From Deltaproteobacteria bacterium (GTDB lineage Bacteria > Myxococcota_A > UBA796 > GCA-2862545): DNA of 32,599 nt. The notes below the pieces were generated by a model. The model saw only the letters and a list, made by a program, of their open reading frames with translations. It did not search any database and was not told the DNA's origin. How positions within the stretch are numbered: position 1 is the first letter of the stretch; every line of letters begins with the position of its first letter. The translations under genes and the position numbers were made by a program. Location: contig SBGP01000075.1 of NCBI GenBank assembly GCA_006226595.1, forward strand, positions 1 through 32,599, read 5' to 3'. This document shows, piece after piece, positions 2,145 to 24,972 of the stretch.

Positions 2145-2591
2145 GTGAACAGGGAGGCCCCGCTGTCCAACCGCATCCTCGTGGCCGTCGACTTCGGCGA
2201 ACTGACCGCTCGCACCATCGACTACGCCGTGCGCCTCGCGGGCGCCGACACGCAGATCGACCTGCTGCACGTGCTCGTCGGCCGCCCCTCCGCCTCCGTG
2301 GGCCTTCCATCGGCCCGCGAGCTGGTCGATGCGCTGATCGAGCAGGAGCGAACCTTCGCCCAGAAGAAGCTGGCCGAGCTTCAAGCGGCCCTGCCCGAGG
2401 CGAATCGCGGCGAGCTGATCCTCGAAGAGGGCCCTGCCGCCGACGTGATCTGCGAGGCTGCCGAGAAGGGCGGCCACGAGCTCATCGCGGTGTCGACCCA
2501 CGGACGCAGCGGGCTGAAGCACATGCTCATCGGCTCCGTCGCCGAGCGGGTGGTCCGCCTCGCCAAGGCCCCGGTCGTGGTCGTTCGCTGA
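2145..2591 (+). CDS. Universal stress protein (UspA family)
   Basis: A single Usp domain of about 145 residues, the normal length. It begins with the first beta strand and Asp of the family (NRILVAVDFGE) and ends with STHGRSGL, then GSVAERVV, then the strand APVVVV. The Gly-rich segment HGRSG...GS fits the ATP-binding subclass. Cytoplasmic; such proteins bind nucleotide and help cells survive stress. The start is uncertain. GTG at 2145 has a poor ribosome binding site, whereas an AGGGAGG at 2151-2157 sits five bases before an in-frame CTG at 2163, which would give a protein starting LSNRILVAVDFG. The stop overlaps the next start by one base (TGATG), which suggests translational coupling to the thioredoxin gene. 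Confidence 0.88.
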   Translation: MNREAPLSNRILVAVDFGELTARTIDYAVRLAGADTQIDLLHVLVGRPSASVGLPSARELVDALIEQERTFAQKKLAELQAALPEANRGELILEEGPAADVICEAAEKGGHELIAVSTHGRSGLKHMLIGSVAERVVRLAKAPVVVVR

Positions 2592-3124: not shown

Positions 3125-3612
3125 TGGCCGAGGTCGCGTGGGAGCTGCGGCCACCTGACCGCACCCTCCAACGCGCAGGCATCGCCAGCCTGCTCGCGGG
3201 CTCGCTGGGCGTAGCCGGGTTCAGCGCCTTGCTCGTCCCCGAGTACGACGCTGCATGGGCCAGCCTCGCGCTCGGCGGCCTCACGCTGCTCGCCACCGCC
3301 CTGTGGCTTCGAAGCGTGCCGCCCTCCTTCACCGCCTCGGCCCGCGTCGATGGCGGCATCCTGCACATCGCCGACGAGCGCTGGCCGCTCGAGTCCATCG
3401 GCTGGGCCACCGCCGAACACGGTGAGCTCGTGCTGTTCGACGTGGATGGCGCCATCCTCCACGACGTCGTGTACGAGGAGAGCGAACAGGTCGAGGCCCT
3501 CGCGGCGTTCGTGCGCGCGTCTGCTCCGTCGCACTCGACGATCGAGGAGCGGCGACAAGCCGCGGCCCGGCTCCACGCCGAGGCGCGCAAGCTCACCGAC
3601 CGGCGCGGCTGA
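3124..3612 (+). CDS. Two-helix membrane protein of unknown function
   Basis: A 162-residue protein whose ATG overlaps the thioredoxin stop (TGATG). Two hydrophobic segments lie at about residues 21-39 (SLLAGSLGVAGFSALLV) and 43-62, followed by a beta-rich cytoplasmic part in which short strands alternate with turns (ILHIADERWPLESIGWA; ELVLFDVDGAILHDVVY). This resembles small bacterial PH-like membrane proteins, but no diagnostic motif is present. The C-terminus is a charged helix (IEERRQAAARLHAEARK). It probably belongs to the same operon as the thioredoxin. The last 20 bases overlap the end of the opposite-strand gene at 3593. Confidence 0.72.
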   Translation: MAEVAWELRPPDRTLQRAGIASLLAGSLGVAGFSALLVPEYDAAWASLALGGLTLLATALWLRSVPPSFTASARVDGGILHIADERWPLESIGWATAEHGELVLFDVDGAILHDVVYEESEQVEALAAFVRASAPSHSTIEERRQAAARLHAEARKLTDRRG

Positions 3613-4135
3613 CCCGGAAGAAGCGCGCGCGCGGACCGAAGCGCTCCCGGCGCACGTGCAGCGCGTTCGTCGCCAGCTGCAGAAACGGGCTCACCGCCGC
3701 GTAGCTCAACAGCCCGATGCCGACGCCTCCGCGCGCCGCGAGTCCTACGCCTCCCGCGATGGCGCCAGTGGCGAGGAACAGCGGATTGGGCGCATAGCCC
3801 TGCCTGCGCAGGGTCGTGCTCTGGCCGATCACGGCGGTCCATCCGAGCAGGGAGCCCGCAGACGCGAGGCCGAGGGCGGGAGCGAGGTCCACGGTGGCCA
3901 TCGGCACGCTGCTCGCGAGCACCGCGGTGGAGGCCACGCCGAGGGCGCCCCAGGGTCGCAGCCGCGCGACCGACTCGGGTCGGGGCGCCGGCACACCCTC
4001 GCCGCCACAGGTGAGCATGCGGCGACAGCCGACGTCGCTCGGCACCCATCCAGCCGGCACATCGAGCCCCGCGGGCACCACCGGCTCCATCGCCAGCGCC
4101 AGTCCCAGCAGCCACACCACCAAGCACACCTCCAT
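3593..4135 (-). CDS. Exported or membrane protein of unknown function, last gene of the five-gene unit
   Basis: About 180 residues. The chosen ATG at 4135 begins a clear export signal (MEVCLVVWLLGLALAMEP); an ATG at 4144 (MPSMEV...) is an equally possible start, and both have weak ribosome binding sites. The mature part has a Cys pair (VGCRRMLTCGGEG), then two or three Gly/Ala-rich hydrophobic segments and a basic C-terminus (RRERFGPRARFFRV). This resembles a small DUF-type membrane protein of the kind found after secretory signalling genes in Myxococcota, but I cannot name a family. It starts 40 bases after the cyclase stop and is probably co-transcribed. The final 20 bases overlap the convergent gene ending at 3612. 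Confidence 0.65.
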   Translation of the reverse strand: MEVCLVVWLLGLALAMEPVVPAGLDVPAGWVPSDVGCRRMLTCGGEGVPAPRPESVARLRPWGALGVASTAVLASSVPMATVDLAPALGLASAGSLLGWTAVIGQSTTLRRQGYAPNPLFLATGAIAGGVGLAARGGVGIGLLSYAAVSPFLQLATNALHVRRERFGPRARFFRVSRAGR

Positions 4136-4175
4136 GCTCGGCATTGTGCCAGAGCCCGAAGGCCGTCCGCGCGAT

Positions 4176-5897
4176 CTACAGCACGTGCGCGGGGACCTCG
4201 TCGCCAAAGCCCTTGAGCGACCGGGTCACTCGCTCGCTCGGCGGTCGCCCGAGGGCCTCGTGGGTCGCGTCGCACACCAGCAGGCCGCCCTTGGGCGCTG
4301 CGGACTCGAGCCGCGCCGCCAGGTTCACCGTGGGTCCGATCGCGGTGTACTCGACATGCCCCTCGGCGCCCAGGTTGCCGACGATCGCCGGTCCGGTCGC
4401 GACGCCCACGCGGATCTGCAGGTCCGCACCCGTCTTCGCCTGCCACGCAGACTGCATCTTCTCGACCTCGTCGAGCATCTCGCGCGCGCAGGCCACCGCC
4501 GAGGCCGCGGGATCGTCGAGCTGACCGGGCGCGCCGAACAGCACCATCAGTCCATCACCGTTGATCTTGTCGAGGTAGCCGCCGTGCTTCTGGATCACCG
4601 GCACCATCGCACCGAGGTACAGCCGCAGGCTGCTGACCACGCCCTCGGCACCGAGACGCTCGGAGAGCGCGGTGTAGCCGACGACATCGGAGAACAGCAC
4701 CGCGATCACCCGCTCCTCGGCGGCACTCGCGTCGAGCGCGGCGCCCTGGGTCGCCTGCAGCCACGAGAGCACGTCCGGTGAGACGTAGGTGCCGAAGGCC
4801 TGCTCCACCATCTGGCGCATGCGCAGCTCGCGCGCGCCATCGTCGAGGAAGCCGCCGAGCGCCGCGATGGCCGGCGGCAGCGCGAGGGTGAGAGGCATCA
4901 CCCACACGTCGGCGAGCACGAACGCGCCGACGGAGCCTGCCGTCGCGACCAGCGGGAGCCCGACAGTGAGGCCGAGCCAGCCGCGCGGATTGCGACGGCC
5001 GATGAACAGCAGACCCACGGCAATCAGCCCGCCCATGCCCACACAGCTCGCCCACGACGCGACCAAGACGCGACGGCCCTCGACCAGCGCCTGTAGCCGG
5101 TTCGCGTGCAGCACCATCAGCGGGTCGTCCTTGGCCGAGGCCAGCGCGCCGTAGTCGCCGAGGCTGCGATCCGTCGGGCCGAAGAGCACGTAGCGGCCGT
5201 CGACCAGTGCCTTCAGGCGGGCGTCGTCGGCCTCGATCAGCTCGTACAGCGAGATCCGGGGGAAGTCCTCCCGCGCCCGCGACATCGGCACCAGGACCTC
5301 GCCACACTCGCGGACCCCGGCGACGGCCGCACCGAGGTCGGGTACGCAGCCATCGTGGACGGGAAGGCACGCCTCGATGCGTCGATGGACGCCATCCACG
5401 TCCGGAGGCGCCACCACGTGCGCGACCTTCACACCCTCGAGGCCCCTGCGCAGCGGCTGCATGTACATGCGCGGGTCGCGGTTGCCGCACTCCGCGGGAC
5501 CGACGGTAGGCGGCGGCGCCACGCCGGCCTCGGCACGCTCGAGCCGCAGCCCCGCACCCACGACGCCTGCCTCCGCGGCGATCAGTCCGAAGAGCTCGTC
5601 GGACCCGGCACCGCCGGTTCGGCTCGCGAACACCACGTCGAAGCCCATGCCCTCCGCGCCCGCATCCAGGAGGCGCATCACCGCCGCGGCGTAGATGTCC
5701 GGGGGAATCGGCCAGCCATGGGCCTCGGTCGTACGCGCGTCGAGCTCGACGAGCACGACGGCGGGCTCGGCCTGGCTGCGCCCCACCTGGAGCTGGTCGA
5801 GCAACGCGCGCTCCACCGGCCGCGGCACGCCGAACAGGGCAAGCACGAGGCCAAGGACGGCCCCGAGCCACACGCCGCGATTCACGCCCGGACTCAC
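4176..5897 (-). CDS. CHASE2-domain class III adenylate cyclase
   Basis: The 573-residue protein has an N-terminal membrane anchor (about 9-24), a periplasmic CHASE2 sensor (about 30-270; it includes VLVELDARTTEAHGWP and DVVFA, the usual opening of the fold), three membrane helices (about 276-347) and a C-terminal class III cyclase domain (about 393-555). Metal-binding Asp404 (FSDVVGYT) and Asp448 (KINGDGL) are present, as are transition-state residues Asn525 and Arg529 (VNLAAR). The base-specifying positions are Lys444 and Thr518, a Lys/Thr pair seen in many bacterial adenylate cyclases, so ATP to cAMP is the likely reaction. Translation starts at a GTG 12 bases after the preceding stop. CHASE2 proteins sense envelope or extracytoplasmic signals; here the likely partners are the exported products of the upstream genes. 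Confidence 0.92.
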   Translation of the reverse strand: MSPGVNRGVWLGAVLGLVLALFGVPRPVERALLDQLQVGRSQAEPAVVLVELDARTTEAHGWPIPPDIYAAAVMRLLDAGAEGMGFDVVFASRTGGAGSDELFGLIAAEAGVVGAGLRLERAEAGVAPPPTVGPAECGNRDPRMYMQPLRRGLEGVKVAHVVAPPDVDGVHRRIEACLPVHDGCVPDLGAAVAGVRECGEVLVPMSRAREDFPRISLYELIEADDARLKALVDGRYVLFGPTDRSLGDYGALASAKDDPLMVLHANRLQALVEGRRVLVASWASCVGMGGLIAVGLLFIGRRNPRGWLGLTVGLPLVATAGSVGAFVLADVWVMPLTLALPPAIAALGGFLDDGARELRMRQMVEQAFGTYVSPDVLSWLQATQGAALDASAAEERVIAVLFSDVVGYTALSERLGAEGVVSSLRLYLGAMVPVIQKHGGYLDKINGDGLMVLFGAPGQLDDPAASAVACAREMLDEVEKMQSAWQAKTGADLQIRVGVATGPAIVGNLGAEGHVEYTAIGPTVNLAARLESAAPKGGLLVCDATHEALGRPPSERVTRSLKGFGDEVPAHVL

Positions 5898-5909
5898 GTC
5901 ATGGTCCAG

Positions 5910-8585
5910 CTACTCGCCAATGCGGGAGTAGAAGAACATGGGCGCCAGCGCCTCTTCTTCGGTGGCGGGGGCACCACGGCGGCCGGCCATCGCGCTCGTC
6001 TCGATGGGCACGTCGGTCACGCCCTGCTCTTCGAGCTGCTCCTGCTTGTCGCGCGCCTTCTGGAGCACCGCCTCGAGACGACGGCGGGTCTCGGCCTCGG
6101 CACTGGCCTCGTCGGAGCCCTGCTCGTCGGCCCGTCCCCCACCCCACTGGTCGAGGAGCATCTCCATCGCGTCGCGGGGAAGCAGGGTCAGCGCCGTCTC
6201 GAGCTGCTCCTGGATCTGGGCCTCGTCCTCGGGCGCCGCGGTGGCCATGAGCATGACCGCGAGGTTGAAGCAAGCCTCGCCCACGCCTTGCTCGCAGGCC
6301 TCGGCACTGATCTGCAGGCCCTTGTTCCGCGATCCGGAGGCCCACGACAGCGCACCTCCCGCGAGCGGAGGAGCCGTCTTCGGCGGCTTGGGCACGTCGA
6401 GCGCGGGCAGCTTGGCGAACACCGGTGCCAGGTCGATGTCGCGCACGGTCACCTTGGGCTCGCCGGCGGTCACCGACACGGCCGGGTAGTCGCGCCACGC
6501 CTCGCGCACGCGCAGGGCCTCGAAGCTCTCGGCCTTGGCCACGAGCTCGGCGCCCTTCTCCCAGGCGCTCGCAAAGTCCGCCGTGAGCGCGGTGGCCTCG
6601 ACGGGCACGAACAGCGCGCCGTCCACCTGCACGAAGCGCTCGCTCGGGAGCCCGACGAGCACCTCACCCCCAGCCCGCAAGCCGCTGTCGACGCCGAGCA
6701 GCACGTGACCGGGCGTGGTGAGGATCACCGTGGACAGGCCCACCGACTCGTACAACGACGCGAGGAGCACCGTGAGATCGTCGCAGTCGCCGGACAGGCG
6801 CGACAGGGTCTGCCGCGGGTGCTGCACCTCGTCGATGCTGTCCGCGAACGAGGTCTGCACCGGGTCCGGCACGTAGCGCAGCGGGTCGCCCCACACGCGG
6901 GCGTGAATCGCGGCGGCCCGTCCGATCGAGCGCGTCGGCGCCTCGGGCAGGTCCCCGCCGAGCGCTGCCGTCGCGAGGTCGCGCACCGCCGAGTCCGCCG
7001 GGTCGACGAAGGCGGCCACCGACGCGGTGTTGTTCCAGTCCAGCGTGTTCAGGCGGTGGACGACGAGGCTGCTGTACGCCCGGCTCCGTCCATAGCGACC
7101 GCCCTGCTTGTACGACACCGTCGCGACCAGCGGCAGGGTGTGTGCGGCATTCGGGTCGACGCTCGGCAGGTTGTCGAGGCGTAGCGCCACCTCGCCGGAG
7201 GCATCGGCCTCGAGGTCGGACATCTCGCGCGACGCGAGCACCTGGCCGTCGACCTCGATCGCGATGCTCACGTCGGTGAGCGGATCGGTGCCTGCGTTGA
7301 TCACGGTCAGGCGCCCGAGTCCGAGCTCCTTGGCCTCCCGGGCCCGCGCCGGGAACAGCGGGGAGAGCTCGGCGGCCTCGATGCGCACGGTCTTCTGCAT
7401 CAGCCCGTCGCCGAGGTCCTCGGGCAGTCCGAGACCGAGGCGCTTGCTCGGGTCGGCGGCGGCGGCGAGGAAGGACTCGTCGAGTCCGCGAACCGCCGCA
7501 TCGAGCGCGACGAGCGGATCGCTGTCCCGGCCGGTCGCGGCGAGCAGCTCACCGTCGTCTCCGACGAGCGACGCGGTGACGAGCCAGCTGCCTTCGGCCT
7601 GAGCGAGGCTCACCTTCGCGAACCACGGCGCGGCCTCGGGGGCGTCCTTGGACACGTCCGCGACCTCGAGCCAGCGCAGGTTGCCCATGGCGGCGCGCAC
7701 GATGGACGGGCCCCGCTCCGCGACCAGCGCCGCCTCGCTCTTCGGCGCCGCCTTGGGAAGCTCGACCTGCACCCCGACCTTGCGGCGGTGCACGCGACCG
7801 AGGTCGACCTCGGCGTGGATCAGCCGATCGCTCACGTGGGTCACGCGCAGGCCCAGCCCGCCGTCGGACTCGATCATGTCGGGCAGGTCCGCGAGAGCGG
7901 CGGCGCCCTGACCGTGGAGCAGGAACTGCGAGAGCGTCGTGTTGAACGTCGCCATGCGTGCGCTCTCGACCCCGGGAAGCTCCCCGAGCAGCGCAGCGAG
8001 CGCGGTGGCCTGGCTGCGCTCGGTGAGCCCGCTGATCTTGAGGTCGGCATCCCACGGGCCGTCCGGCGCGAACTCCTTGGACCACGCGGTGATGTCCGCG
8101 GCGAGCACGCCGGGAGCGCGCTTCTTCACGTTGCCGCCGAACAGCGCCTGGCCGGGGTTCGTGCCGAACACGTCGTTCCACTCTGCGGTCTCGGCGTAGG
8201 CGGTGTCTCCCTGGGAGATGCGCACGACCTTGCGGGTCATCGTGCAGTACCAGGTCAGGCCCATCGCCTGGCTGTGGCCCGCGGTGTCCTTCTCGCACGA
8301 GAGCTGCACGGCCCACGCGGCATCGGCGTTGAGCACGGACAGCGCCTCGGGCACCTGGCCCGCAGCGACCGCGTCGGAGAGCGCGAAGGCCTGGGCCTGT
8401 AGCGAGGCGTCGAGGTCGACCACACGGTGACCGGCGTCCTTGAGTGCGCCGTGGACCCATGCCTCGAGCGGGCCCGCGTCGCGGGTGTTGCCGTCGGCGG
8501 TGACCTTGGGGACTACGACGACGCGAAGCGGCGCGTCCTGGGCGAAGGCCGGGGTGGCGAGAAGCGCCAGGAGGGTCGTCAACAT
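5910..8585 (-). CDS. Exported transglutaminase-like protein with N-terminal CsgG/FlgT-like modules
   Basis: An 891-residue product with a clean signal peptide (MLTTLLALLATPAFAQ). Residues about 18-130 have the beta-alpha pattern of CsgG/TolB-type modules (RVVVVPKVTADG; LNADAAWAVQL), and about 183-262 resembles a ferredoxin-like repeat (SGLTERSQATALAALL). A transglutaminase-like core lies at about 545-670: Cys601 in SGDCDDLTVLLASL, His627 in TTPGHVLLGVDSG, and an acidic third residue, Asp655 (VQVDG) or Glu663 (VPVEAT). The region about 750-800 contains a Sel1/TPR-like helix pair (ACEQGVGEACFNLAVML), followed by a charged coiled coil. It starts three bases after the stop of the lipoprotein gene. 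A cysteine peptidase or amide-crosslinking role in the periplasm or on the surface fits; the substrate is unknown. Confidence 0.78.
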   Translation of the reverse strand: MLTTLLALLATPAFAQDAPLRVVVVPKVTADGNTRDAGPLEAWVHGALKDAGHRVVDLDASLQAQAFALSDAVAAGQVPEALSVLNADAAWAVQLSCEKDTAGHSQAMGLTWYCTMTRKVVRISQGDTAYAETAEWNDVFGTNPGQALFGGNVKKRAPGVLAADITAWSKEFAPDGPWDADLKISGLTERSQATALAALLGELPGVESARMATFNTTLSQFLLHGQGAAALADLPDMIESDGGLGLRVTHVSDRLIHAEVDLGRVHRRKVGVQVELPKAAPKSEAALVAERGPSIVRAAMGNLRWLEVADVSKDAPEAAPWFAKVSLAQAEGSWLVTASLVGDDGELLAATGRDSDPLVALDAAVRGLDESFLAAAADPSKRLGLGLPEDLGDGLMQKTVRIEAAELSPLFPARAREAKELGLGRLTVINAGTDPLTDVSIAIEVDGQVLASREMSDLEADASGEVALRLDNLPSVDPNAAHTLPLVATVSYKQGGRYGRSRAYSSLVVHRLNTLDWNNTASVAAFVDPADSAVRDLATAALGGDLPEAPTRSIGRAAAIHARVWGDPLRYVPDPVQTSFADSIDEVQHPRQTLSRLSGDCDDLTVLLASLYESVGLSTVILTTPGHVLLGVDSGLRAGGEVLVGLPSERFVQVDGALFVPVEATALTADFASAWEKGAELVAKAESFEALRVREAWRDYPAVSVTAGEPKVTVRDIDLAPVFAKLPALDVPKPPKTAPPLAGGALSWASGSRNKGLQISAEACEQGVGEACFNLAVMLMATAAPEDEAQIQEQLETALTLLPRDAMEMLLDQWGGGRADEQGSDEASAEAETRRRLEAVLQKARDKQEQLEEQGVTDVPIETSAMAGRRGAPATEEEALAPMFFYSRIGE

Positions 8586-8588
8586 CGT

Positions 8589-11500
8589 CTACTCACAGGT
8601 TCCGGGGATGAGGGCGGCGCGGACGCCGCAGGTCGCCGAGTACTCGAGGGAGAGGTGCGTCCAGCCGAAGCCGTCGATGCGCTGCATCTCGTCGTAGTAG
8701 CTCCACTTGTCGAACTCGGTGTACGGGCCGAACTCCCAGTAGCGCTGGGAAGCCTCCCCGAAGCAGTAGGGCGATCCGTCCTCGCTGAGCGCACAGAACC
8801 GGTACGCATCGCGGGAGACCTCGATCTCCGTCCACGTCCGCTCGGGAAACAGCTGGTGCACGCCGTAGTCGCCGGTCCACGGCCAGCACCACAGGGTGCC
8901 GTCCTCCTTGACGCCGCAGCCCTTGTTGCCGGCGACGCCGAGGTCGGCCCAGGGCCCGGACTCGAGGATGCCGCCATTCGCGAGGGCCTGGTCGTAGGTG
9001 AGGTCCGTGGTGCTCCCGGTGCCGAGTCGGCGTGAGGCGCCCTCTCCCCAACACATGGCCTCTCCCGCGTCGTCCACGGCGCAGGTGAAGTCGTCGCCGG
9101 CGTGCAGCTGGGTCCACACGGTCGGCGTGGGCTCGGTCCCGACGGCCACGGTGGGACCCGCCTGGTTGTAGCCCCAGCACGCGATGCGGCCGTCCGAGAC
9201 GCGAATGCCACAGCCGTGACGGTGCCCGATGGCGATCTCGGTGAACACCTCGGAGGTGTCTTCCCACGGCTCGTACACGGGCTGCGTCGTGCCATTGCCG
9301 ACCTGGCCATTGCTGTTTCGTCCCCAGCACCAGCGATGGCCATCGCCGTCGAGCGCGCAGGTGTAGTAGAGGCTGGCATCCACGTCGAGCACGGGGCCGG
9401 CCATGACCATCACCGGCTCCGAGGCCGACTGCGGAAAGTCGCCGGAGTCGAGGGTGATCGTGCCCGTGCCCAGCTGCCCGTAGCGGTTGGCGCCCATGCA
9501 CCACAGCGCGTCACCGTCGTCGATGAAGCACGTGTGGTCGTAGCCCGAGGCGATACGCTTGACGTTCGCTGAGGTGCGCACTGTGGGCCGGTCCATACCC
9601 GGGCCAGTGCCGGGCTCGTCCCACTCACCCCACGCCCACAGGGCCCCATTGGAGTCGACGGCGTAGCTCGCGTAAGCCCCGAGCCCGAAGTCGCTCACGT
9701 CGGAGAGCACGAGCTCGGGCGACCAGGCATCCGCCGTGACCCCGAGTCCGTTGCTCTCGGTGTTGCGGCCCTCACCCCAGCAGTAGAGATCTCCCGCGTC
9801 CGTGAGGCCGCAAGCGCCCTCTTCCTCGGACTCGATGCGCGCGAAGGTCTGGGTGCCCGCGCGCACGGCCTGGAAGGCGTAGCCCACGTCGCTGCCGTCT
9901 CCGAGCTTGCCGTAGCTCCGTGAGCCCCAGCACCAGGCGGCACCATCGCTGTCGAGGGCGCACCCGTGGTCGGGCCCAGTAGCCAGCTGGGTCCAGGTCC
10001 CGCCCGTGGGATGGGCGATCTGGTTGGGCACGGGAGTCCGTTGGCCCGAGGAGGGCGGAACGTCGAGGCCGGTGCGTCCCGAGTCCGAGAAGCCCCAGCA
10101 CCACAGCGTGTTGTCGTCGCGCAGCCCGCAGGTCGCAAGCCACATCACGCCCACGTCGATCCACCGCTCGGTGTCGAGCACGACCACGGGCTCGGCCTCG
10201 TAGCTGCTGTCCTCGGTCGCAAAGCCGAGCTGGCCGTGGCTGTTGACGCCAAAGCAGGCGAGCACGCCATCCGCGTCGATCACACACGCATGGTCGCCGG
10301 TCGCATCGAGCTTGCTCCACGTCGCGTTGCCCACGCGGACGGGAACGCCGCTGTCCTGGGGAGGGATCGGGTACCCAGAGGAGTTCCAGTCACCCCAACA
10401 GTAGAGCTCGCCGGTGAGGGTAAGACCGCATGCGGCCTCGTTCCCCATCTCGACCGTCGCGAACGTCAAGCCACCGGCCACGGGCGCAATCCACCGCCGC
10501 TCCCACAGCGTGTCCTCGAGGCCGTCGCCGAGCCGGCCATGGTTGTTCGCGCCCCAGCAGTGGAGGGTGTCGTCCATCGCGAGCGCGCAGCCGTGCATGT
10601 CGTCGCCGTGGGTCTGGGCGTCGCCGTACACGGCCTTCCACGGGCCCTCGTCGACCAGCTCTGGACGCTGGCGCACGTACTCGCCCCAGCACTCCACCGT
10701 GCTCGTCCCCGAGAGGTCTTCTTCGAGGATGTTGTCGTCCGTGCCGTCACAGTCGTTGTCGAGGCTGTCGCAGGAGGCCTCGGTGGGCTCGAATCCGGCG
10801 AGCTCGGTGAGGTCGGGCTCGACCCAGATGCCCTGGTCGAGGTTGCACACGAGCGTGCTTCCCGCGCACACGCCGTCCTGGTTCGAAGCGAGCGGGAGCT
10901 CCTCGGGTAGGAACTCGTCCCACTCGCCGTCACAGTCGTTGTCGTAGCCGTCGCAGTCCTCGGCGCCGTACAGCGCGTTGTGCTCGCTGTAGTCGGGCTC
11001 CATCCACCCGCCGTTGACCGGGTCGCAGACCTTCACGGCATTGCGGCACACGCCGAGCTGCTTGTCGGCGAGCGGCGGCGTGCCCGCGTCCTCGTCGACG
11101 GCGGCATCGCAGTCGTTGTCGAGCGTGTCGCACCCGGTCTCGACCACCGCGTAGTTCTCGATCGCCGTGTAGTCGGGCTCGACGAAACCACCGCTCCCGT
11201 CGCAGACCTTGCGGGCTCCCTCGCACACGCCGTCCTGGAGATCGGCGAGCGGGGCGCTGGCGAGGTCGTCGTCGACGCCGTTGCAGTCGTTGTCGAGACC
11301 ATCGCAGGTGGCCTCGGACGCCTCGTAGGTCGCGATCTGCGTGTAGTCGGGGTCCTGCCAGCCGTTGGTGCCGTCGCACCACTGCACCTGACCGGCGCAC
11401 ACGCCCTGGTCGAGCGTGGCCGACGGCGCGGTGAGGCCGTTGTCCTCGCCGCCGTCGCAGTCGTTGTCGAGGCCATCGCAGCTCGCCTCGGTGGCTTCGT

Positions 11501-12452
11501 AGTCGGCGACGGTCCCGTAGTCGGGCTCGATCCAGCCGTTGCCGCCGTCGCAGACCTTCTCGGCACCCGCGCACACGCCCTGCTGCACGTCGGCAAGCGG
11601 CGCGGACAGCGCCTCGTCGGTATCGGCGTCGCAGTCGTTGTTCAGGCCATCACAGGTCGCCTCGACGGCCTCGAAGTCGGCGACGGTCGTGTAGTCGGGC
11701 TCGACCCAGCCCCCGCTGCCATCGCAGACCTTCGCGGCTCCCGCGCACACGCCGTTCTGGTTGTCGGCGAGCGGCGCGGACAGCGCCTCGTCGGTCTGCC
11801 CGTCGCAGTCGTTGTCGTCGCCGTCACAGGTCGCCTCGTCGGCCTCGTAGCCGGCGATCCGCGTGTAGTCGGGCTCGGTCCATCCGCCGTTGCCGTCGCA
11901 CTGCTTGAGCGCACCCGCACACACGCCCTGCTGGTTGGCGGCGAGCGGCGCCCCCTCGAGGTCGTCGACGACGTCGTTGCAGTCGTTGTCCACGCCGTCG
12001 CAGGTCTCGGCGGCACCCGGGTACACGGTGTCGTCGGTGTCGTCGCAGTCCGTGCCCCCGCAGGTGTCGGTGGCGACGCCATCTCCGTCCTCATCCGCGT
12101 CGAAGGACTCGGTGACCAGCGCATCGGTGGGGTTGCCGTCCCCGTCATAGGCGACGACCCGCGCCTCGCATGGCGCACACGCCGCGGCCATCGCGGTGGA
12201 CAGCACCTGGCTGCCACTGCCCTCGAAGCCGAGGTCGATCGCGGTCGACGCGCCCTGTCCCTGGATCTCCACGACGTAGCGGGCCACCAGTGGCTGCGCC
12301 GAGACCGACCACGACAGCTCCAGCCCCGCCTCCGCGCAGGTGAAGCCGAGGGTCGGCGCCGCCGCCTCGATGAGCCGATCCTGCGCGGCGCCCTCGATCT
12401 GCGGGGCCTCCACGCACGCGGCCAGGACAAAGGGCAACCACGACCAGCGCAT
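8589..12452 (-). CDS. Giant lipoprotein: MopE-type metal-binding repeats fused to an RCC1-like propeller
   Basis: 1287 residues. The start at 12452 gives a lipoprotein signal (MRWSWLPFVLAAC, lipobox LAAC, Cys13) and lies one base after the preceding stop; the open frame further upstream is ignored. Residues about 35-115 form a beta-rich fibronectin-like region, then DADEDGDGVATD, a type-3-thrombospondin-like Ca-binding loop. Residues about 131-565 contain eight copies of a 58-residue repeat built on CDGxDNDCDGxxDE with GVCAG and KVCDG Cys pairs, the MopE (Cu-binding) motif family. Residues about 580-1287 hold some 13 RCC1-like blades with the signature CWGxNxxGQLGxG, with extra cysteines. The protein should be anchored to a membrane and face outward. 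MopE of Methylococcus binds copper; whether this one does is inference. Confidence 0.88.
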   Translation of the reverse strand: MRWSWLPFVLAACVEAPQIEGAAQDRLIEAAAPTLGFTCAEAGLELSWSVSAQPLVARYVVEIQGQGASTAIDLGFEGSGSQVLSTAMAAACAPCEARVVAYDGDGNPTDALVTESFDADEDGDGVATDTCGGTDCDDTDDTVYPGAAETCDGVDNDCNDVVDDLEGAPLAANQQGVCAGALKQCDGNGGWTEPDYTRIAGYEADEATCDGDDNDCDGQTDEALSAPLADNQNGVCAGAAKVCDGSGGWVEPDYTTVADFEAVEATCDGLNNDCDADTDEALSAPLADVQQGVCAGAEKVCDGGNGWIEPDYGTVADYEATEASCDGLDNDCDGGEDNGLTAPSATLDQGVCAGQVQWCDGTNGWQDPDYTQIATYEASEATCDGLDNDCNGVDDDLASAPLADLQDGVCEGARKVCDGSGGFVEPDYTAIENYAVVETGCDTLDNDCDAAVDEDAGTPPLADKQLGVCRNAVKVCDPVNGGWMEPDYSEHNALYGAEDCDGYDNDCDGEWDEFLPEELPLASNQDGVCAGSTLVCNLDQGIWVEPDLTELAGFEPTEASCDSLDNDCDGTDDNILEEDLSGTSTVECWGEYVRQRPELVDEGPWKAVYGDAQTHGDDMHGCALAMDDTLHCWGANNHGRLGDGLEDTLWERRWIAPVAGGLTFATVEMGNEAACGLTLTGELYCWGDWNSSGYPIPPQDSGVPVRVGNATWSKLDATGDHACVIDADGVLACFGVNSHGQLGFATEDSSYEAEPVVVLDTERWIDVGVMWLATCGLRDDNTLWCWGFSDSGRTGLDVPPSSGQRTPVPNQIAHPTGGTWTQLATGPDHGCALDSDGAAWCWGSRSYGKLGDGSDVGYAFQAVRAGTQTFARIESEEEGACGLTDAGDLYCWGEGRNTESNGLGVTADAWSPELVLSDVSDFGLGAYASYAVDSNGALWAWGEWDEPGTGPGMDRPTVRTSANVKRIASGYDHTCFIDDGDALWCMGANRYGQLGTGTITLDSGDFPQSASEPVMVMAGPVLDVDASLYYTCALDGDGHRWCWGRNSNGQVGNGTTQPVYEPWEDTSEVFTEIAIGHRHGCGIRVSDGRIACWGYNQAGPTVAVGTEPTPTVWTQLHAGDDFTCAVDDAGEAMCWGEGASRRLGTGSTTDLTYDQALANGGILESGPWADLGVAGNKGCGVKEDGTLWCWPWTGDYGVHQLFPERTWTEIEVSRDAYRFCALSEDGSPYCFGEASQRYWEFGPYTEFDKWSYYDEMQRIDGFGWTHLSLEYSATCGVRAALIPGTCE
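10738..12010 (-). repeat. Tandem 174-bp coding repeats (eight copies)
   Basis: The core CAGTCGTTGT occurs on the plus strand at 10750, 10933, 11110, 11284, 11458, 11632, 11806 and 11980. The spacing is 183, 177, then exactly 174 bases five times (58 codons). The copies encode the MopE-type repeats of the lipoprotein and stay in frame. The exact period of the middle copies points to recent duplication or gene conversion. Confidence 0.9.
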
Positions 12453-12453
12453 C

Positions 12454-14700
12454 TTAGAAGCGAAGCTCCAGCTTGGCGTGGGCGCCGCCGAGCGTGGGGG
12501 TGACATCGAGGCTCGCGCTGGCCTTGCCGAGGTCGAGGCCCTCGAGGTTCGGCTTCACCTTGCCACCGAAGGCCATGAGTCCGGTGCCGATGACAGCGAG
12601 GCCGACACCACCCACGCCGACGGCCTGGTAGGTGTTCGCGCGCTTGTGGAAGGTCGTCGCCTCGGCAAGCGCGGCATCGGCATCCGCCTGGCGCACGGCA
12701 TTCTGGGCGAGGGCCGTGTACTCACCGGCCTTCTGGCGATCGACGGCACCGGCGTACAGCCCGAAGCCCGCGGCACCGAGCCCGGCGACCGCCGCACCCG
12801 CACCGACCATGCGGCGGGTGCGCTGCTTCGCGGAGGCCTGGGCGATGCGCTCGCCGATCTCCTTCTCGAGGGCCTCGCGCTCCTCGGCGTTCTGGGCCAG
12901 CCGGTCCTTCTCGGCCTCGGCCCGCGCCTCGTCGGCGGTCAGCGCGTCCTTGGCGATCTCGGAGCGCATGAACTTCTCGAACTCCTCGAGGGTCGGCTTG
13001 CCCTTCGTGAGCTCGCGCATGGTGTCGGCGTCGAGGTCGCGGCCCACCGCGTCGGCGAGCTCGGCGATGACCTCGTTGACCACGTCGCCGTACTTGTTCA
13101 TCGGGCCGTCGGCGCCGGCGGTGTACAGGACCTCGCCGCTGCCCACGTCCACGAAGCGGACCGAGAGCTTGAGGTCGTTGTCGAGGTGCTGGAAGCCGCC
13201 GAGCACCAGGAAGTTGGCGGACATCTGCTGGCCCATCGCCGCCAGATCGACGGCTCCCTCTTCCATCAGCTCGGTTCCGGCGGCCTCCTCGGCCCCCATC
13301 ATCGCGAGCTGGTAGGTGAGCACCTTGCGCATCTCCGCGCGCTCGACGGTCGCGAAGCCGAGGACCGGCAGGTCGCGGCCGAGCAGCTCTGCGAGACCAT
13401 CGGAGAGCCACGCGTCCTCGGCCCTGGCCGTGGTGTTGCGGAACGGGAGCACCGCGACCTTCGCGGCCACGTCGGCGAACTGCAGGCGCAGCGCCTCGTG
13501 GGCGTTGGCGTACTCGGGGTCGGCGGCCATCGCCTCCTCGAACAGCTCCTTGGCCGCATCTGGCGAGGAAGCCGCCGCGAGGCGAGCCTTGGCGACCGCG
13601 CGAACCGCGGAGTCGCTCGGCGCGCGGGCACCGGCGATCTTCATCTTCTGGACCGCGGTCATCAGGCCGGCGTCACCCATGATCTCGGTGGTCAGCTCTC
13701 GCGTGCCCTGGAACAGGTGGTCGGCGTCCGTCTTGACCACCGCGGACTGCAGGATGGCGCCGGACTCGACGTGCACGAGGCGGCCGGTGAGCGTGATCAC
13801 CTCGCCATCGGCCTTGTAGTTGCCGTAGATCATCGTCCCGGCCTGCAGGCTGTTGCCGAGCTCGACCGCGTGCTTCTCGTCGACCACGCCCATGAGACCG
13901 AGGGAGAGCTCCTCCATCACGCTCTCCATGCGGGTACGCTCGACCACCTTGAGGTCGGTGTGCTTGATCAGATCGTTGGTCACGCCGTCGGCGACCGCGA
14001 GCCCGATCCAGTCGCTGTCGCTGTCCTTGGCGTCGAGGTTCGCGAACGCGGCCACGGCGACCGGACGCTCGGAGAGGTACGCGAGACGCAGGCTCTCGAT
14101 CTCCTTCTTGCGGGCCAGGCGCATGTCCTTGACCTCGGCGTCCTTGTCGATCTGGCCGAACCACTGCACCGCGCGCTCGTCCTCGTGGACGTGGTAGTTC
14201 GCGACGGCGTTGAGGTAGTAGAAGTGCCGGGTCAGCGCGACGCGGTAGCCCTCGATGGACTGGGTCGGACCGAAGCCGACCTCGAGGTCGACCTGCTCCG
14301 CGAGCTGCTGGGCCCGGATGAAGTCGTCGGCCCGCACCGCACCGATGAGGTTCAGGTACACGGCGAGGTTCGGGTAGGTGCCGGACGAGGCCTTGCGCAC
14401 GCGGGCGAGGTCGATGCGCTCACCCTCGGGCGTGCTGCGGGCAGTGTCGAGCACGTACTCGAGCACCGGCTCGATGGCCTCGGCGCGACGGACTTCCTTG
14501 GCGAAGGTGTCCTTGTCGAGATCGCCGGTTCGTCCAGCATCACGCTCACCCAGGATGTACTTGAAGTAGGCCGAGTCCTCGGCGAGCTTGCGGAGGATCA
14601 GGGTCTCGGCCTGGTCCTCGGCCTCCTCGATGCCCGCAGCCTGGGACGGCGCAGCGAGCAGCGTGAGCATCAGGGTGAGGAGGATGGGAAGCGAACGCAT
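12454..14700 (-). CDS. Exported protein with two CsgG/FlgO-like modules and a coiled-coil membrane tail
   Basis: 748 residues. The ATG at 14700 follows GGAGT at ideal spacing and begins a signal peptide (MRSLPILLTLMLTLLAAPSQAAG); the frame continues upstream without a better start. Residues about 23-205 are helical, TPR-like. Two related modules follow, at about 212-345 (PVAVAAFAN...VVERTRM) and 412-545 (KVAVLPFRN...TVERAEM). The pattern of a beta strand VAVLPF, then VERxxM, then a strand ending in G is that of CsgG/FlgO/TolB-type envelope proteins. Then come a charged coiled coil (575-630), two Gly/Ala-rich hydrophobic segments (631-652 and 692-712) and a C-terminal Phe (AKLELRF). It is first in the five-gene unit. 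An envelope assembly or sensing role is inferred. Confidence 0.8.
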   Translation of the reverse strand: MRSLPILLTLMLTLLAAPSQAAGIEEAEDQAETLILRKLAEDSAYFKYILGERDAGRTGDLDKDTFAKEVRRAEAIEPVLEYVLDTARSTPEGERIDLARVRKASSGTYPNLAVYLNLIGAVRADDFIRAQQLAEQVDLEVGFGPTQSIEGYRVALTRHFYYLNAVANYHVHEDERAVQWFGQIDKDAEVKDMRLARKKEIESLRLAYLSERPVAVAAFANLDAKDSDSDWIGLAVADGVTNDLIKHTDLKVVERTRMESVMEELSLGLMGVVDEKHAVELGNSLQAGTMIYGNYKADGEVITLTGRLVHVESGAILQSAVVKTDADHLFQGTRELTTEIMGDAGLMTAVQKMKIAGARAPSDSAVRAVAKARLAAASSPDAAKELFEEAMAADPEYANAHEALRLQFADVAAKVAVLPFRNTTARAEDAWLSDGLAELLGRDLPVLGFATVERAEMRKVLTYQLAMMGAEEAAGTELMEEGAVDLAAMGQQMSANFLVLGGFQHLDNDLKLSVRFVDVGSGEVLYTAGADGPMNKYGDVVNEVIAELADAVGRDLDADTMRELTKGKPTLEEFEKFMRSEIAKDALTADEARAEAEKDRLAQNAEEREALEKEIGERIAQASAKQRTRRMVGAGAAVAGLGAAGFGLYAGAVDRQKAGEYTALAQNAVRQADADAALAEATTFHKRANTYQAVGVGGVGLAVIGTGLMAFGGKVKPNLEGLDLGKASASLDVTPTLGGAHAKLELRF

Positions 14701-15118
14701 GCGCACTCCAGGGGCGGAACTCGCCCTAGCCAACGAGCAGAAAGTCAGAGGGTACGGGGAATGCAGCTTCCCCGGGGGCGCCATCGTCGCACGATCCGAC
14801 GGTCGCGGCGAGTCCGAAGCCAGATGCGCGGCGTTCGAGCCGGGAAAGCGCCAGCGACGCCGACCGATCGGCATGCGTCAATCCCGGCTTCTCGGGCGGA
14901 CATCGATCGCCCTGTCGTGCGCGACGCGTCATGTGACTCCTTGCCGCCGATGCATAGCAGTCGCACCGATTTTATGCAAGACGAATTAAACGCATTCACC
15001 CACGCGCCCGCTTCATAGGCTCATCGGCGAGCCGTCGCTCCGCAACGCATTCGCAAGGGCGAGCATTTTCGCACGCAAGTAGTGCGCTCTCTGGCCCGAT
15101 CGCCCGATTTTCGGGCCA
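14701..15118. promoter_or_regulatory. 418-base non-coding region upstream of the five-gene unit
   Basis: No convincing gene lies here in either strand. The left half is ordinary GC-rich DNA, with the ribosome binding site GGAGT just before the start at 14700. Around 14965-15000 it turns unusually AT-rich for this window (tttatgcaagacgaatta). On the minus strand that patch contains TAAAAT (14969-14974), a fair -10 element, without a good -35. If it is used, the leader would be about 270 bases long. Confidence 0.4.
15102..15116 (-). terminator. Hairpin just after the kinase stop
   Basis: GCCCGA and TCGGGC form a 6-bp stem with a three-base loop directly downstream of the kinase stop (minus strand). 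A second copy of the left arm at 15093-15099 could pair instead (7 bp, longer loop). There is no T-run, so factor-independent termination would be weak. Confidence 0.35.
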
Positions 15119-16678
15119 TCAACCCACGCGAGTGGGGTCGAGCTCGAGCTCCTGGACATCGCCGACCCGTCGCACGACCGCGGCCAGATCGGCGGCCGTC
15201 GCCACGGCATCGCGATCGACGAGGGCATGCAGGGCCTCGTCCACCTCCGCGGCGGATGCAAAGCGCCCGTCGGGCTCACGGCACAGGATGCGCTCGAAGA
15301 ACGCGTCCCACGCCGGCCCCGCGTCCGCGCGCAGCGACGAGATCGGCGGGATCGGCGCCTCGACCACCGCATACAGCGTGGCCGCCTCCTCTCGCCGGGC
15401 GAACAAGCGCCGATTCGCCGCGAGCTCCCACAACAGGACCCCGAGCGCCCACAAGTCGACGCGCTGGTCGATGACCCCGTCCTTGAGCTGCTCGGGCGCC
15501 ACGTAGCTGGGCTTGCCCGCCAGGGTGTGGGTCTTGGCGGAGTGCTCGGTGCCGAGCGCCCGCGCGACCCCGAAGTCGGTGATCTTCACGGTGCCATTGC
15601 GGGCGAGCAGGACGTTGCTCGGCGAGAGATCGCGGTGCACGACGCGAAGCGGCTGACCGTCCGGATCCAGCGCGAGCTCGTGGGCATACTGGAGTCCCGA
15701 GGCCAACTGCTGGCCGATGAACGCGACCATGCCCAGGGACAGGGCGGTACCGAGCTCGTAGCGATGCTTGTTGAGGTCGCCGAGGGTCGGCCCATCCACG
15801 TACTCGAGTGCCAGGAAGAAGGTGTCGTCGACGCGCCCGAAGTCCAGGGCGCTGGCGATGTTCGGATGGGCAAGGCGCGCCGCCAGCTCGGCCTCGGTGC
15901 GAAACCGCTCCACGAACGCGGGGTCCGCGGCAAGGTGCGGATGGATGAGCTTGACCGCGACCGGGCGCTCGAAGCCACCCTCCGGGCAGTACACGGCGCG
16001 AATGACACGCCCCATGCCCCCCGAGGCAATCTCGTCGAGCAGCCGGTACTTCCCGAACAGCTCCTGGCTGCGGACATCGGCGTTCGCGGCATCGATGACC
16101 CGGCGCAGGGCGACCACCGCGAGCGAGCTGCCGATGCCGAACAGCACGAGGGACGAGGCGCGCACCAGCTGCACGCGTGGCGAGAACAGCGTGACCGTCG
16201 GGTCCACCGCGCCGCGAATCGCCACCAGCCACACGAACAGGTACTCGGCGGCGGCGAGCACGCCGACCGCGAACGGAATCGGCGCGTGGAGACGCACGAT
16301 GCCGGCACCGATGTACAGCGTGAACAGCATCGGCGGCACCCAGCTGCCCAGCGCATACGCCGGGCCCTCGGCGAACACCGTGATCAGCAGCGCGGCGCCG
16401 GGCAGCGCGAGCTCGACCAGCGGGTTCACCCAGCGGAGCACGGCGAAGCCCAGGCCCCGCGACAGCATGGCCGCGGCGACCGAAAAGTAGGCGAAGGCGA
16501 GGCCCGAGAGCAGCGACAGCGGGAGGCCCAGGCTCGGCGAGATCGCGGCGGATGCATACAGCGCGACCGCAATGCACAAGCCCGACACGAGCTGATCGGC
16601 GCGCGCTATCATGCGCTCCAGCTCCGCAGAGCTGGATTCGAGCGCGCTCCACAACGGACTCTGCGAGCTGTCGGCCAT
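15119..16678 (-). CDS. Membrane Ser/Thr protein kinase (eukaryotic-like)
   Basis: 519 residues, in the reverse of the usual bacterial order: a polytopic N-terminal domain (about six hydrophobic helices between 30 and 192) and then a C-terminal cytoplasmic kinase (about 210-490). Kinase motifs are complete: Gly loop ASGGMGRV, Lys243 in VAVKL, catalytic HRDLSPSN (Asp350, Asn355), DFG (Asp368) and APE (394-396). The Ser in place of Lys in HRDLSP is a common variant in Myxococcota. The start at 16678 (MADSSQ) is chosen; ATG 16690 adds four residues, and neither has a strong ribosome binding site. No PASTA, TPR or other sensor domain follows. It points the same way as the five-gene unit but is separated from it by 418 bases, so co-transcription is uncertain. 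Confidence 0.92.
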   Translation of the reverse strand: MADSSQSPLWSALESSSAELERMIARADQLVSGLCIAVALYASAAISPSLGLPLSLLSGLAFAYFSVAAAMLSRGLGFAVLRWVNPLVELALPGAALLITVFAEGPAYALGSWVPPMLFTLYIGAGIVRLHAPIPFAVGVLAAAEYLFVWLVAIRGAVDPTVTLFSPRVQLVRASSLVLFGIGSSLAVVALRRVIDAANADVRSQELFGKYRLLDEIASGGMGRVIRAVYCPEGGFERPVAVKLIHPHLAADPAFVERFRTEAELAARLAHPNIASALDFGRVDDTFFLALEYVDGPTLGDLNKHRYELGTALSLGMVAFIGQQLASGLQYAHELALDPDGQPLRVVHRDLSPSNVLLARNGTVKITDFGVARALGTEHSAKTHTLAGKPSYVAPEQLKDGVIDQRVDLWALGVLLWELAANRRLFARREEAATLYAVVEAPIPPISSLRADAGPAWDAFFERILCREPDGRFASAAEVDEALHALVDRDAVATAADLAAVVRRVGDVQELELDPTRVG

Positions 16679-16914
16679 GAACCGGAGCATTGCACAGCCG
16701 GAGCGTTCGGGCGGTTCGCGGGCGAACGAATGCCGCGCTCGGCCCCGGGTCCACGTCGTTGGACGAGGCAGCGGAACCACACCCCGGGCCACGAAAAGCC
16801 GGCGCTTCCTACCAAAGTGCGCTCGGACCGGCTACCCTTGCGACGTTTTCATACAGCCGTCGGCCCATGCTGCGGGTTCGGCGACAACATTCGCTCCATC
16901 CTTGCGTTTTCACG
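16679..16914. promoter_or_regulatory. Divergent promoter region between kinase and monooxygenase genes
   Basis: These 236 bases must carry the start signals for both neighbours. A TACCCT at 16833-16838, 76 bases before the ATG at 16915, is a weak -10 candidate on the plus strand. The part around 16840-16915 is lower in GC, with several T-runs (gttttcatac, gcgttttcac). No clear operator is visible. Confidence 0.35.
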
Positions 16915-21707: not shown

Positions 21708-21735
21708 GAGGCCATGCTTCACCCGAAGCGTGGCC

Positions 21736-21737
<2 letters not shown>
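21708..21737. terminator. Bidirectional hairpin terminator between convergent genes
   Basis: GAGGCCATGCTTC (21708-21720) and GAAGCGTGGCCTC (21725-21737) make a 13-bp stem with one G-U pair and the loop ACCC. It begins six bases after the PH gene stop, and its last bases overlap the histidine kinase stop, so it can serve both strands. There is no long T-run on either side. Confidence 0.72.
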
Positions 21738-24243
<2,506 letters not shown>

Positions 24244-24264
24244 ATCAGCACTCGCGGGCCCATG

Positions 24265-24783
24265 CTAGCTCTCGTCAGAAGGCGCCGGGTTGGTGCGGAA
24301 CACGACCGTGGCCATGTCGTCTTCGTCCTCATCGTCGTCCTCGGCACCGTACGACGATGCAGCGGCCTTGGCCTTGCGCTCGGCCTCGAGGCGCTCGCGA
24401 AGGCGGCGAGACTCATCGCTCTCGGCCGGCTCGGGCGCCGGGGTGGGCTCGGGAGCCGGGGCCGGTTCCGCCGCAACGGGAGCCGGAGCAGGCGCGGGTG
24501 CAGGAGCTGGTGCAGGCGCGGGTGCAGGAGCCGGCGCGGGTGCGGGCGCCGGCGCGGGCGCCTGCGATTTCTGCGCGGCCGGCGGATGCGCCGGAGCATG
24601 CGCCGCGTGGCTGCCCTCGTCTTGCTTCGGGCGCGCCGACATCACCAGGATGCCCGCCCCCGCGAGAAGGACGGCGCCGACAATGCCGAAAAGAGCGGAA
24701 TTGTCGAGCGTGGCGCCTCCCGCCTCCTGGGCGGCGGCGACAGTCGGGAAGACGAGGAGGAGGAGAGGTTGCAGTCGGCTCAC
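24265..24783 (-). CDS. Exported protein with long Pro-Ala tract and acidic tail
   Basis: About 172 residues. The GTG at 24783 is preferred: a GGAG lies seven bases upstream, and it begins a textbook signal peptide (MSRLQPLLLLVFPTVAAAQ). ATG 24804 would add seven residues. The mature part is short: one hydrophobic segment (NSALFGIVGAVLLAGAGILVM), then a His/Ala/Pro segment, a run of about 15 Ala-Pro pairs with AEPAPAPEPTPAPEP, a charged helix (RRLRERLEAERKAKAA) and an acidic end (EDDDEDEDD). Rigid Pro-Ala rods are typical of linkers that span the envelope, as in TonB. It is followed by the histidine kinase 21 bases on, so the two may be co-transcribed. No function is recognised. Confidence 0.68.
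   Translation of the reverse strand: MSRLQPLLLLVFPTVAAAQEAGGATLDNSALFGIVGAVLLAGAGILVMSARPKQDEGSHAAHAPAHPPAAQKSQAPAPAPAPAPAPAPAPAPAPAPAPAPAPVAAEPAPAPEPTPAPEPAESDESRRLRERLEAERKAKAAASSYGAEDDDEDEDDMATVVFRTNPAPSDES
24421..24563 (-). repeat. Low-complexity Pro-Ala coding tract
   Basis: On the plus strand this reads as a GC-only series of six-base units of the type gcaggc/gcgggt/gcaggag, and on the minus strand it codes for Ala-Pro pairs. It is imperfect at the DNA level, so replication slippage would change the length in 6-base steps without breaking the frame. Confidence 0.8.
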
Positions 24784-24972
24784 GAAGGGAACTCCACTGG
24801 ACATGCGCGAATCGTACCGCTCGATGCACAGCCCTGCCAAGCACCGCCCCCACATGCGCTGCCGCATTTGCTGCACACGTGTCGGGTACCCACGGCTCCT
24901 CCCGGTACAATCGCTCGCCGCGAGTCGCCGGAAACGGACGCCGTGTCCCCTCCACAAAGCCGGAGAAAGCCT
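24784..24972. promoter_or_regulatory. Divergent intergenic region with a -10-like box
   Basis: 189 bases between the Pro-Ala protein gene (leftward) and the ceramidase-like gene (rightward). A TACAAT at 24906-24911 in the context CCGGTACAATCG is a good -10 for the rightward gene, 61 bases before its GTG, but no convincing -35 accompanies it. No strong repeat is visible. Confidence 0.4.

Follow-up and report, generated by a model that had tools for sequence, protein, structure and literature searches.

A CHASE2 receptor adenylate cyclase gene next to a gene for a predicted exported transglutaminase-fold protein in a deltaproteobacterial gene run

The window is a stretch of 32,599 nucleotides from a deltaproteobacterium of the Myxococcota_A (assembly GCA_006226595.1, contig SBGP01000075.1). 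Inside it, five genes, which we call g1 to g5, follow each other on the minus strand from position 14700 to 3593 (Table 1), with intergenic gaps of only 1, 3, 12, and 31 to 40 bp. As the genes are codirectional and no gap exceeds 40 bp, an ordinary operon prediction is plausible. The intergenic stretch before g1 separates the run from a Ser/Thr kinase gene on the same strand and, judging by this spacing, is likely the promoter region of the run. Beyond g5, a universal stress protein gene is followed by two frames with good codon scores that are convergent with g5, one of them thioredoxin-like (motif WCGPC) and extending up to 3124 and the second ending at 3612. The run is thus bounded on one side by the kinase gene and on the other by these plus-strand genes. 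Farther along the window, a dCache-HAMP histidine kinase gene faces a large open frame on the other strand; the kinase is probably the real gene and the frame a GC-rich shadow over at least its first half.

Table 1. Location of the five-gene run, its surroundings, and other loci mentioned in the text.
Feature	Location	Strand	Description
g1	12454..14700	-	748 aa, exported, two CsgG/FlgO-like modules; hydrophobic stretch near C terminus
g2	8589..12452	-	1287 aa, predicted lipoprotein, MopE metal-binding motifs and RCC1-type repeats
g3	5910..8585	-	891 aa, predicted exported transglutaminase-fold protein
g4	4176..5897	-	573 aa, CHASE2 receptor adenylate cyclase, class III
g5	3593..4144 or 3593..4135	-	183 or 180 aa, small protein, N-terminal hydrophobic segment
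Gap upstream of g1	14701..15118	-	418 bp, likely promoter region of the run (from spacing)
Ser/Thr kinase gene	15119-16792	-	Next gene upstream of g1
Universal stress protein gene	2145-2591	+	Beyond g5
Two frames with good codon scores	2594-3612	+	Convergent with g5
Open frame opposite histidine kinase	21730-26694	+	1654 aa, probably a shadow frame over at least its first half
dCache-HAMP histidine kinase gene	21736-24243	-	Probably the real gene
CHASE2 - CsgG/FlgO - CHAT module loci	L077 (G000:C21, 7016-12710), L119-L123, L126, L128; truncated at contig ends: L125, L127, L129		See text

The product of g4 contains both a CHASE2 domain (82.3 bits against a Pfam cut-off of 26.3) and a Guanylate_cyc domain (74 bits against 21.9), and its best PDB matches are adenylate cyclases. 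Hydrophobic segments at residues 7-25, 282-300, 310-328, and 333-351 give the order N-terminal transmembrane segment, CHASE2, transmembrane cluster, and catalytic domain. Residues D404, K444, D448, T518, N525, and R529 are invariant among eight aligned CHASE2-cyclases, and we take them to be the metal, adenine (purine), and transition-state positions of class III cyclases; with these catalytic residues in place, the enzyme should make cAMP. We considered whether g4 could be the Pycsar cyclase PycC and rejected this assignment, since the matches are confined to the shared class III domain and K444 and T518 are of the purine type. PADLOC found no effector matches among the five genes. The genome has a large cyclic nucleotide repertoire, with 24 class III cyclase-domain stretches and 18 cNMP-binding stretches. 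We can assume that g4 is probably a conventional receptor adenylate cyclase paired with an unusual partner.

The gene directly upstream, g3, matched no Pfam family at an E value of 0.1, and the protein was placed in the transglutaminase fold by its relatives and residues only. In 379 genomes of the phylum, the family was seen only in both genus members and in two distant relatives (G194 and G235, whose open frames span 937 and 972 aa). Cys601, His627, and Glu663 are invariant across these four members, one of the distant relatives passes the Transglut_core model (PF01841), and in distant relatives a TPR region corresponds to the C terminus of g3. The N terminus of g3 reads by eye as signal-peptide-like. 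A search of the GTDB r220 contig collection gave no match with g3 alone and recovered only the congener with a two-row alignment. The AlphaFold models of g3 (two sequences, mean pLDDT 38.9) and g1 (single sequence, mean pLDDT 39.7) were of too low confidence and were left out of the fold search. Residues 425-690 of g3 weakly match the anti-phage protein ProA (NCBIfam NF058533), at 50.4 bits against a cut-off of 1500 and over profile positions 14-297 of about 1900 only; what both have in common is the transglutaminase-like part alone, so g3 was not assigned to ProA. This same part of g3 matches the N-terminal part of long proteins (frames of ~1,950 aa at L007 and other loci), which may be relatives of ProA. 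The long protein at L007 looks helicase-like by eye.

In g1, CsgG and FlgO both score above their Pfam cut-offs, with Pfam matching the first module only. A local profile of CsgG/FlgO-like proteins from related loci detected two modules, at residues 214-324 and 415-530, which are 29% identical to each other (BLAST E value, 8e-7). Assignment as a curli/CsgG secretion channel, which would require a full-length CsgG lipoprotein, was rejected: the match spans only profile positions 11-96 of 210, and the signal-peptide region of g1 has no Cys. Profile comparison detected no relation between g1 and g3. The g2 protein contains MopE and RCC1 repeats above the Pfam cut-off and a lipobox, LAAC, with similar motifs in several paralogs. 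Lipoproteins with this MopE and RCC1 combination, of ~1,200 to 1,400 aa, make up a dispersed family, of which each genome of the genus has at least five complete members (L091-L101).

The weakest of the five is g5, whose status as a gene is uncertain: its codon score is 0.26 per codon versus 0.42 to 0.77 in nine training genes, and no homolog was found. Apart from this gene, the content described in an earlier note on this DNA, made from the sequence alone, was borne out, namely, five closely packed minus-strand genes coding for two CsgG/FlgO modules, a lipoprotein with MopE and RCC1 repeats, an exported transglutaminase-like protein, and a CHASE2 adenylate cyclase. The export signals claimed for four of the five rest on hydropathy in g1 and g5, the lipobox in g2, and the N terminus read by eye in g3. 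For the small membrane protein that the note saw in g5, only one clear hydrophobic stretch is present, and the low codon score and lack of a homolog count against it.

The same note had regarded the five genes as one cassette, and here the genus comparison, which consisted of two genomes (our own, G000, and the congener G001), was largely against it. The congener ortholog of g1 (70% identity) lies alone on a separate contig (L076, 1020-3263), with the next frame on the opposite strand; full-length g1 is present in both genus members and was not found in the 377 other genomes sampled from the phylum. No clear or syntenic ortholog of g2 was found in the congener, as the best matches of g2 are a paralog from its own genome and G001:C81, and the best match of the latter is yet another paralog. 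Beside the nine other complete g2 paralogs and a partial one, we detected no g1-, g3-, or g4-like neighbors (phmmer, 1e-5, within contigs). The congener has no counterpart of g5 after the cyclase. Only g3 and g4 are together in the congener, adjacent in the same strand and order and about 6 bp apart (L075). With identities of 60% for g3 and 47% for g4, this adjacency has been kept across real divergence, and almost no other part of the window has a syntenic counterpart on that contig; as the genus has two genomes, this is a single comparison. The five-gene run is therefore a local arrangement and not a conserved system, and the g3-g4 pair is its supported part. In the congener, g3-g4 is directly followed by a Ser/Thr kinase gene (L075:6420-9593) coding for a long C terminus with a TPR match, and this kinase is a possible third partner of the pair.

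CHASE2 genes were also searched for in 58 relatives, where 28 places were above the cut-off. Fusion to a cyclase occurs in at least six CHASE2 genes other than g4 and its ortholog. The earlier note would count cyclase homologs with unrelated partners against its reading, and outside the genus other partners were indeed found, with a release factor gene, a peptidase C26 gene, an OmpA protein gene, and a TPR-CHAT gene among those nearby. A CsgG/FlgO-like gene adjoins 12 of the 28 CHASE2 genes, when the chance estimate is about 0.1% for each; the probability is ~5e-28 under a uniform model and 1e-19 allowing a five-fold local density, figures that treat related, nonindependent genomes as separate cases.

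These 12 loci carry a recurrent module in which a small exported protein, CHASE2, a CsgG/FlgO-like protein, and an exported TPR-CHAT protein are encoded with nearly constant strand and order. In a variant locus (L124, genome G054), the CsgG/FlgO-like gene lies on the opposite side, and a CHAT gene was not found. The CHASE2 proteins lack an enzyme domain in both members scanned with Pfam. Among the CHAT proteins, the nine whose C terminus is complete have retained the His (ATHG) and Cys (LSAC) motifs, and most begin with a signal-peptide-like stretch. A FecR label for the first gene was dropped, as it was assigned by eye only and Pfam gave no match. Our genome also carries this module at a separate place (L077). 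The g1-g5 run was not counted as a member because its CHASE2 protein bears a cyclase, its CsgG/FlgO gene is 6.5 kb off, and it has no CHAT gene. The module is better conserved and looks more interesting than the five-gene run.

Our leading, still tentative, reading is that the stable unit is the g3-g4 pair, from which an exported transglutaminase-fold protein and a CHASE2 receptor adenylate cyclase are produced together. The g3 protein would reside in the periplasm and sense or process a peptide or protein that is incoming or belongs to the envelope. Its binding or cutting would change the state of CHASE2 and so the cAMP output of the cytoplasmic domain of g4, and this cAMP could then act on some of the cell's many cNMP-binding proteins. 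The genes g1, g2, and g5 would be lineage-specific neighbors, perhaps cotranscribed accessories and not fixed parts. The kept adjacency, the intact catalytic residues of g4, the Cys/His/Glu set of g3, the 18 cNMP-binding stretches, and a precedent in Sinorhizobium meliloti (see below) all argue for this reading. Against it stand the single genus comparison, the specificity problem posed by some two dozen cyclase domains of class III in one cell, and the distant g3 relatives, which have no visible cyclase: the one in G235 has thioredoxin-like and peptidase genes as neighbors and no cyclase alongside, and the one in G194 sits where its contig ends, the visible side being free of a cyclase.

A somewhat unlikely explanation, although one to be taken seriously, is that a stand-alone CHASE2 sensor cyclase is cotranscribed by chance with unrelated envelope genes and its pairing with g3 is inherited gene order. 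The CHASE2-cyclases of other genera sit near genes as unlike as those listed above, and short conserved runs are common inside a genus; however, g3 and g4 have stayed together on a congener contig that shares almost no other synteny with the window.

That all five genes form one envelope assembly reporting via CHASE2 to cAMP, as the earlier note proposed, now appears improbable. The tight spacing on one strand and the adjacency of CHASE2 and CsgG/FlgO genes far above chance in related genomes are in its favor, but the CHASE2 genes involved in that adjacency differ in kind from g4 (the two scanned encode no enzyme domain), none of the other partners accompanies the g2 paralogs elsewhere, and the congener has g1 on its own at another place, lacks a g2 ortholog at the corresponding position, and has no counterpart of g5. 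What stands of this proposal is narrower: in both genomes, the gene for the exported protein g3 has stayed next to that for g4, a cyclase with its catalytic residues intact. Equally doubtful is a broader version of the g3-g4 reading, a protease-gated cAMP receptor in which g3 would control the CHASE2 cyclase, the CsgG/FlgO modules and the metal-binding propeller lipoprotein would act as accessories, and the whole would be related by kind to the CHASE2 - CsgG/FlgO - CHAT module. Least probable is a rearranged form of that module, with g3 in place of TPR-CHAT and a cyclase added to CHASE2, for although the ingredients are the same by kind (CHASE2, CsgG/FlgO-like, and an exported cysteine-peptidase fold with a TPR region) and in another genus a TPR-CHAT gene immediately precedes one CHASE2-cyclase gene (L109), g1 is not beside g3-g4 in the congener, the gene order differs, and our genome has the CHAT module elsewhere.

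To our knowledge, the ligands of CHASE2 are not known and few of its periplasmic partners have been named. The closest known case to g3-g4 is that of S. meliloti, where the outer membrane protein NsrA is needed for signaling by CyaK and CyaD1/CyaD2 (PMC7529298, PMC13001267) and a plasmid with CyaD1 lacking CHASE2 gave constitutive cAMP (PMC5498481). Both systems combine CHASE2 with a class III cyclase and have cAMP as the output, with an envelope protein acting upstream, a role that g3 would fill here. They differ in that NsrA is a beta-barrel sensing a plant protein and the output passes via the CRP-type regulator Clr, whereas the neighbor here is an exported transglutaminase-fold protein. 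The BiofilmReg operon of Burkholderia contaminans codes for a response regulator, a periplasmic LysM-FecR protein, a CHASE2 histidine kinase, and a DUF4136 protein (PMC5192318). It resembles our run in having exported proteins encoded with a CHASE2 sensor, but it signals through a histidine kinase and response regulator instead of cAMP, and its envelope proteins belong to other families. Likewise, the CHASE2 - CsgG/FlgO - CHAT module shares with the run CHASE2, a CsgG/FlgO-like protein, and an exported protein of cysteine-peptidase fold, and differs in its enzyme-free CHASE2 (in those scanned), its CHAT peptidase, and its adjacent genes in nearly fixed order.

In a literature search that covered papers outside subscription, CHASE2 was not combined with CsgG or with "CHAT domain," the module was not found, and CHASE2 and transglutaminase co-occurred in one paper, in unrelated passages. 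The earlier note had suggested that the five-gene combination was undescribed, and in this literature it was indeed not found; the principle by which an envelope protein acts through CHASE2 on cAMP is nevertheless established in S. meliloti. By that precedent, g4 probably works as a receptor adenylate cyclase whose CHASE2 domain, outside the cytoplasm, would be set by a periplasmic partner, here probably g3. The g3-g4 pair offers a concrete candidate partner for CHASE2, an exported protein of a cysteine-protein fold kept beside a CHASE2 cyclase, and the CHAT-containing module suggests that CsgG/FlgO-like proteins may be general CHASE2 partners in this group of bacteria.
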